Shown piece after piece: positions 17,043 to 20,657 of a stretch of 59,292 nucleotides of DNA (the first letter of the stretch is position 1; the number at the start of each line of letters is the position of its first letter). Source of the stretch: Candidatus Gugararchaeum adminiculabundum (GTDB lineage Archaea > Micrarchaeota > Micrarchaeia > Burarchaeales > Gugararchaeaceae). The DNA lies in assembly GCA_902384795.1 (NCBI GenBank), contig CABMDC010000021.1:1-59292 (forward strand). Direction: 5' to 3'. A program made the translations under genes and the position numbers. Under the pieces are notes generated by a model. It was given only the letters and a program-made list of their open reading frames with translations. It searched no databases and was not told the DNA's origin.

Positions 17043-17127
17043 TGCAGGGGGCAGGATTTGAACCTGCGGAGGCCTAAGCCATAGGATCTTAAGTCCTACC
17101 CGTTTGACCAAGCTCTGGAACCCCTGC
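17043..17127 (-). tRNA. tRNA-Leu (anticodon UAA)
   Basis: The minus strand gives acceptor stem GCAGGGG pairing CCCCTGC with discriminator A, a D arm containing TTGGT, anticodon stem TAGGA/TCCTA enclosing loop CTTAAGA (anticodon TAA), a long variable arm typical of leucine, and T arm GCAGG-TTCAAAT-CCTGC. It is 85 nt with no intron and no encoded CCA. A TATA-like run at about 17184-17194 lies upstream. Confidence 0.95.
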
Positions 17128-20292: not shown

Positions 20293-20404
20293 ACACTGGT
20301 TTTCGAACCCAAAAGATAAAAGCCAAAACCTTTCGGGCGAGCCTGAATTTGTATTTAATTCTTGTGTACTAAAATCTATTCAGTGGGCCCGTAGCTCAGC
20401 CTGG

Positions 20405-20451
20405 TGAACTTTTAGCAAAAAGTTCAAACAAACCGCTAAATTTTCGGGCAA
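20405..20451 (+). other. Intron 1 of tRNA-Ile, in the D loop
   Basis: The 47-nt insert contains an 8-bp hairpin (GAACTTTT/AAAAGTTC). Exon GCCT can pair intron GGGC to form the central helix, with bulges GGT and AAT cut after the second base. The boundary is ambiguous by one T. Confidence 0.7.
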
Positions 20452-20469
20452 TAGAGCGGCAGTCTTATA

Positions 20470-20516
20470 TGACGGCGCGCGTACGCGCGCGTTGCTAACA
20501 GCTAAGGTGCTGAGAA
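20470..20516 (+). other. Intron 2 of tRNA-Ile, at canonical position 37/38
   Basis: A 47-nt insert with a GC-rich palindrome (GCGCGCGTACGCGCGC) forming its own stem. The bulge-helix-bulge with helix CTTA/TGAG defines both cuts. Confidence 0.78.
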
Positions 20517-20657
20517 AGCTGTAGGTCGCGAGTCCAAATCTCGCCGGGCCCACTTCTAGTTTTTAAAAAACGGAAAAAGCACGGGAAAACTTAAATACGA
20601 AATATCCCGCCCGCAAACCCCGTTCCCCTTTTTAATTTGCAATGCGAATCATTACCC

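Follow-up and report, generated by a model that had tools for sequence, protein, structure and literature searches.

A tRNA-Ile(UAU) gene with two small introns and the apparent replacement of the agmatidine route of AUA decoding in Micrarchaeota

Most archaea read the AUA codon with an agmatidine-modified tRNA-Ile2(CAU) made by TiaS. Here, we ask how AUA is read in a Micrarchaeota genome in which an earlier note, made from the DNA letters, had pointed to a tRNA-Ile gene with a UAU anticodon and two inserts. The window, i.e., the whole stretch of DNA that was analyzed (59,292 nt), is an entire contig of a 1.47-Mb, 26-contig MAG that is 93% complete and whose SRP54 has its closest matches among Micrarchaeota records (77%, 61%, and 58% identity in the parts that aligned). 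AUA accounts for 266 of the 1,182 Ile codons (22%) in 47 ORFs of the window and is present in 46 of these ORFs; therefore, a reader of this codon is needed.

A tRNA-Ile(UAU) gene with two introns

Based on the cloverleaf, intron mapping, and covariance models, the precursor is encoded on the forward strand at 20385 to 20552. Exon 1 (20385 to 20404) contains the 5' strand of the acceptor stem, T8-A9, the 5' strand of the D stem, and the D loop up to G19. It is followed by intron 1 (20405 to 20451; 47 nt), which lies in the D loop at about position 19/20. Exon 2 (20452 to 20469) contains the end of the D loop, the 3' strand of the D stem, the 5' strand of the anticodon stem, and C32 to A37, with the anticodon TAT (UAU) at 20466 to 20468; CTTATA is shared by 51 genes, the present one among them. 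Intron 2 (20470 to 20516; 47 nt) is located at the canonical 37/38 site after A37, and exon 3 (20517 to 20552) extends from A38 through the 3' strand of the anticodon stem, the variable region, the T arm, and the 3' strand of the acceptor stem to A73, while CCA is not encoded. On the same strand, a TATA-like A+T-rich stretch at 20350 to 20359, approximately 26 to 35 nt upstream of the mature 5' end, is a candidate promoter, and a T run at 20560 to 20564 is a candidate termination signal; both were read from the sequence.

Removal of the two introns leaves a 74-nt molecule, GGGCCCGTAGCTCAGCCTGGTAGAGCGGCAGTCTTATAAGCTGTAGGTCGCGAGTCCAAATCTCGCCGGGCCCA, that ARAGORN identified as tRNA-Ile(tat) and that has a full, clean cloverleaf with a computed folding energy of −31.4 kcal/mol. 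A14, G18-G19, T33, A37, and A73 are all present; the anticodon stem contains two G.U pairs, and C replaces the usual U at position 55 of the T loop, as is also the case in the tRNA-Trp of the same genome. The gene is single-copy in the genome.

ARAGORN did not call the gene at 20385 to 20552 on unspliced DNA, and the Rfam tRNA model missed it at the gathering score and returned only a sub-threshold piece of 17.5 bits, in both cases because of the D-loop intron. Since these two tools miss multi-intron genes, we used custom covariance models and anticodon-arm patterns. Models R1 and R2 include the present sequence, and their scores for this gene are therefore circular, while R3 was built from the spliced tRNA-Ile(UAU) of 13 relatives with the present sequence left out. 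R3 matched 20385 to 20552 end to end (69.3 bits; E value of 1.5e-16) and assigned one insertion exactly to the D loop and the other to the site following A37; its second-best match was the tRNA-Leu at 17043 to 17127 (29.7 bits). The E value argues that the match is not due to chance. In the 13 spliced homologues, all stem cells were paired (100%), and changes compensated on both sides were observed at eight pairs, three of which are in the anticodon stem. We conclude that 20385 to 20552 is a real tRNA-Ile(UAU) gene of an ultrasmall archaeon, with two small introns, as the earlier note had described it, with the coordinates exact and with a well-formed tRNA carrying the loop CTTATAA once the inserts are removed.

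Splice sites and the splicing endonuclease

At both introns, a 4-bp helix is located between 3-nt bulges, as expected for bulge-helix-bulge (BHB) sites. The D-loop site has the central helix GCCT/GGGC, the bulges GGT and AAT, and the inner pairs GAA/TTC, and is near the strict motif with one A.A mismatch adjoining the D stem. At the 37/38 site, the helix CTTA/TGAG is flanked by the bulges TAT and AAA, and these elements agree with the previous description of this site as textbook, but the inner helix is weak and almost missing, which does not. The unconstrained minimum-energy fold lacks the anticodon-loop motif, and imposing this motif on the precursor without the D intron raises the energy by 6.4 kcal/mol.

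The genome contains a single ORF of 400 codons for a splicing endonuclease, which aligns over its full length with the ARMAN-2 epsilon2 enzyme 4fz2 (E value of 3.8e-128). In this alignment, the triad Y236/H251/K282 and the loop residues Y160/K161 are intact (numbering as in PMC6379350 and PMC12397907). The protein thus has the features of an epsilon2 enzyme, i.e., a three-unit protein of about 390 to 400 aa with the catalytic triad and the ASL Tyr-Lys. Based on the gene sequences, the precursor is predicted to be spliced by this enzyme. The pre-tRNA-Ile(UAU) of ARMAN-2 ("Ca. Micrarchaeum acidiphilum") has been used as a splicing substrate (PMC12397907); it is like the present precursor in phylum, isotype, and anticodon, and its intron is cut by an endonuclease of the same epsilon2 type. 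The present gene differs by the second intron in the D loop, in a comparison made without alignment to the full ARMAN-2 precursor. tRNAs with more than one intron have been described for ARMAN-1 and ARMAN-2 (PMC4033280), and non-canonical tRNA introns are known at positions such as 20/21 (PMC4090602). Thus, both an intron-containing tRNA-Ile(UAU) and multi-intron tRNAs are already known in Micrarchaeota.

Could this locus be a tRNA-like pseudogene or a chance fold, or be spliced at other points to give a different anticodon? The score under the Rfam gathering threshold is what a pseudogene or chance fold would have in its favor; this reading is scarcely credible given the E value obtained with the independent R3 model, the orthologous genes in 50 other genomes, and a precursor fold that is better than those of 199 of 200 shuffled sequences. 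Other splice points are suggested by a possible one-base slide at each intron boundary and by a free fold that prefers other pairings in intron 2. However, every equivalent choice of boundaries yields the identical spliced product, BHB symmetry favors the boundaries given above, and the loop CTTATAA is seen directly in seven homologues that have no intron, and we therefore regard a different anticodon as very improbable.

AUA decoding in the genome and the phylum

In addition to tRNA-Ile(UAU), the genome encodes an Ile tRNA with a GAU anticodon and two CAU tRNAs, which we assigned by sequence features as elongator and initiator Met tRNAs; a search with R2 at E values up to 10 found no further CAU tRNA in this 93% complete MAG. 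Using the FLD domain of TiaS (PF08489), we found no match in any of 301 Micrarchaeota genomes, including the present one and the 96 good ones, nor in any of the 60 near relatives, while the same search was positive in four of four control archaea. Both observations that, according to the earlier note, would speak against its reading, i.e., a tiaS gene and a CAU Ile tRNA in the same genome, were thus looked for and not found. The lysidine (TilS) route was considered because a PP-loop protein of the genome matches the TilS domain with 73 bits. This score is below the TilS cut-off, and none of 41 genomes searched had a TilS match above the curated cut-off. The same protein scores 214 bits to NcsA and 183 to TtuA and is above the cut-off of TIGR00269. 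Judged by these scores, it is a thiolation enzyme of the NcsA/TtuA type, and we rejected the lysidine route.

Reading candidates one by one, we identified tRNA-Ile(UAU) in 51 of 60 related genomes, the present one included. The exact anticodon-arm pattern RGAGCRNNNGTCTTATA was present in 247 of the 301 Micrarchaeota genomes and in 85 of the 96 good ones, while a reversed control pattern gave only rare matches. Neither model nor pattern detected the gene in the remaining nine relatives (G002, G008, G024, G029, G031, G033, G034, G049, and G055); since several of these genomes are good (G031 and G049), the gene may contain extra introns or be split there, or AUA may have a different reader. Surveys from 2018 and 2021 placed tRNA-Ile(UAU) in few reduced lineages and listed two archaea (PMC6000648, PMC8450103). 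The statement that this tRNA occurs in only a few reduced lineages, which the earlier note repeated, is out of date in view of these counts and the published ARMAN-2 case. In a literature search that covered only a minority of subscription journals, we found no papers that name both TiaS and DPANN.

These data support that nearly the whole phylum appears to read AUA with an encoded UAU anticodon and, as judged from gene content, that the TiaS/agmatidine tRNA-Ile2(CAU) route appears to be absent from Micrarchaeota and to have been replaced wholesale. This route does the same job in most archaea, the reading of AUA as Ile, but its enzyme and its tRNA were not found here, and the anticodon is UAU rather than CAU. 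As in the present genome, Nanoarchaeum equitans and Korarchaeum cryptofilum have an encoded UAU in place of the CAU-Ile2 tRNA, and in the latter, the UAU gene has one intron and the GAU gene has none (PMC6000648, PMC8450103). The present gene differs from both in having two introns and in belonging to a trait that is phylum-wide.

The main alternative is a second, undetected tRNA-Ile2(CAU) that is modified by an enzyme other than TiaS, with the UAU gene auxiliary or decaying. Because the MAG is 93% complete, such a tRNA could have been missed, tRNAs with several introns escape searches, and the PP-loop protein with its match to the TilS domain could be taken as a candidate modifier. On the other hand, this protein is thiolation-like by its scores, TiaS is missing from all 301 genomes, the UAU gene shows conservation and compensatory changes in its stems, and the search for a further CAU tRNA was negative; we consider this alternative improbable.

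We therefore favor, with high confidence, the explanation that the single-copy tRNA-Ile(UAU) decodes AUA directly, that its BHB introns in the D loop and at 37/38 are cut by the epsilon2 endonuclease, and that the TiaS route is apparently gone from the phylum. Gene structure, conservation, spliced fold, the endonuclease gene, and the negative TiaS search were all observed. In the proposed sequence of events, the ARMAN-2-type enzyme of the genome would cut the precursor at both BHB sites, the exons would be joined, and Ile-tRNA synthetase would charge the spliced tRNA, which would then read AUA, while the GAU tRNA would read AUU and AUC; a modification of U34 or a feature of the ribosome would stop UAU from misreading AUG.

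Introns of the isoleucine tRNAs and the problem of U34

Introns in tRNA-Ile(UAU) vary in site among the relatives. Intron 2 has counterparts at 37/38 in the phylum, with an intron at this site in 43 of 50 readable genes, this one included. D-loop introns are present in this gene in four genomes (the present one, G019, G058, and G026) and are known from three families besides the present one; those of the present genome, G019, and G058 share the same site and the same GGGCAA end. Given these families and the precedents cited above, the D-loop intron does not make the gene as strange as had been suggested. T-arm introns occur in tRNA-Ile(UAU) of at least 13 genomes. One relative (G026; near 60388 of contig C3) combines all three sites, its tRNA-Ile(UAU) being interrupted in the D, anticodon, and T loops. 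The tRNA-Ile(UAU) of the red alga Cyanidioschyzon merolae has introns in the D, anticodon, and T arms (PMC9602550); it thus shares the isotype and the D-arm and anticodon-loop introns with the present gene, and all three introns with that of G026, but is from a eukaryote, unlike the present archaeon.

Elsewhere in the genome, the T loop of tRNA-Lys(CUU) (contig C22, 300 to 800) and the variable region of tRNA-Gly(UCC) (contig C4, 71650 to 72100) each contain an intron, and non-canonical introns are thus common in this genome. The initiator tRNA-Met (contig C22, 2200 to 2650, at about 150 to 255) has an apparent D-arm insert, TGATCC..GGGTAGCC, that would need splicing. In addition, several Micrarchaeota families share a repeated element, CCTTTTCTTTCCCGAAAGAAAAGG..CCAAAAGAAAG, that lies within the introns of a number of different tRNAs, with copies in L034 (275), L041 (the tRNA-Ile(GAU) locus; 124), L179, L184, L189, L210, and L222 and one that was not placed (L005, 1635). 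Transposition of tRNA introns is known in Thermoproteales, and the repeat suggests that introns may have transposed here as well.

Of the 44 genomes in which both Ile tRNAs were readable, 24 had the 37/38 intron only in the UAU tRNA and 2 only in the GAU tRNA; 14 had it in both tRNAs, and 4 lacked it in both. Seven of these cases (G000, G016, G017, G032, G045, G051, and G058) were settled by eye, either because the variable-region rule of the script was too strict or because the gene had been found earlier. Of the two Ile tRNAs, the UAU one has thus retained the intron next to the anticodon far more frequently (sign test on 24 versus 2, 1e-5, with genomes that are not independent and with introns also in other tRNAs). 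The 37/38 introns of tRNA-Ile(UAU) start with YGRC in about 38 of 40 cases from ten families, and A[C/T]A is found at intron positions 15 to 17 in 29 of 40, also from ten families, while most other offsets gave 0 to 6 and offset 13 gave 18. The intron at 20470 to 20516 has the YGRC start and lacks A[C/T]A. We considered whether A[C/T]A might mark an H/ACA-like guide; some of the introns measure only 27 nt, less than a typical guide RNA requires.

Yeast tRNA-Ile(UAU) acquires pseudouridines at positions 34 and 36 only if its precursor contains the intron; when the intron is missing, U34 becomes ncm5U (PMC9602550, PMC4090602). cnm5U is expected to read AUG too (PMC8879553). By analogy, the micrarchaeal 37/38 intron might act in recognition or timing and thereby determine how U34 (or U36) is modified in the precursor, such that UAU pairs with AUA but not with AUG; it would then be an archaeal counterpart of the intron-dependent pseudouridylation of yeast. 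The bias for the UAU tRNA and the shared YGRC and A[C/T]A support this idea, which we put forward as a speculative and rather unlikely one.

The AUA/AUG split of the genetic code is usually protected by a modified C34. Micrarchaeota, which apparently rely on an encoded UAU, offer many natural cases in which to ask how U34 avoids AUG, and AUA still makes up 22% of the Ile codons in the window despite the apparent loss of the modified-C34 route. What appears to be new here is the generalization to the phylum, with TiaS in 0 of 301 genomes and the UAU arm in 247 of 301 extending surveys that listed only two archaea; the apparent wholesale replacement of the agmatidine route was less expected. The intron bias makes it testable whether an intron controls the modification of U34 in these archaea as it does in yeast.
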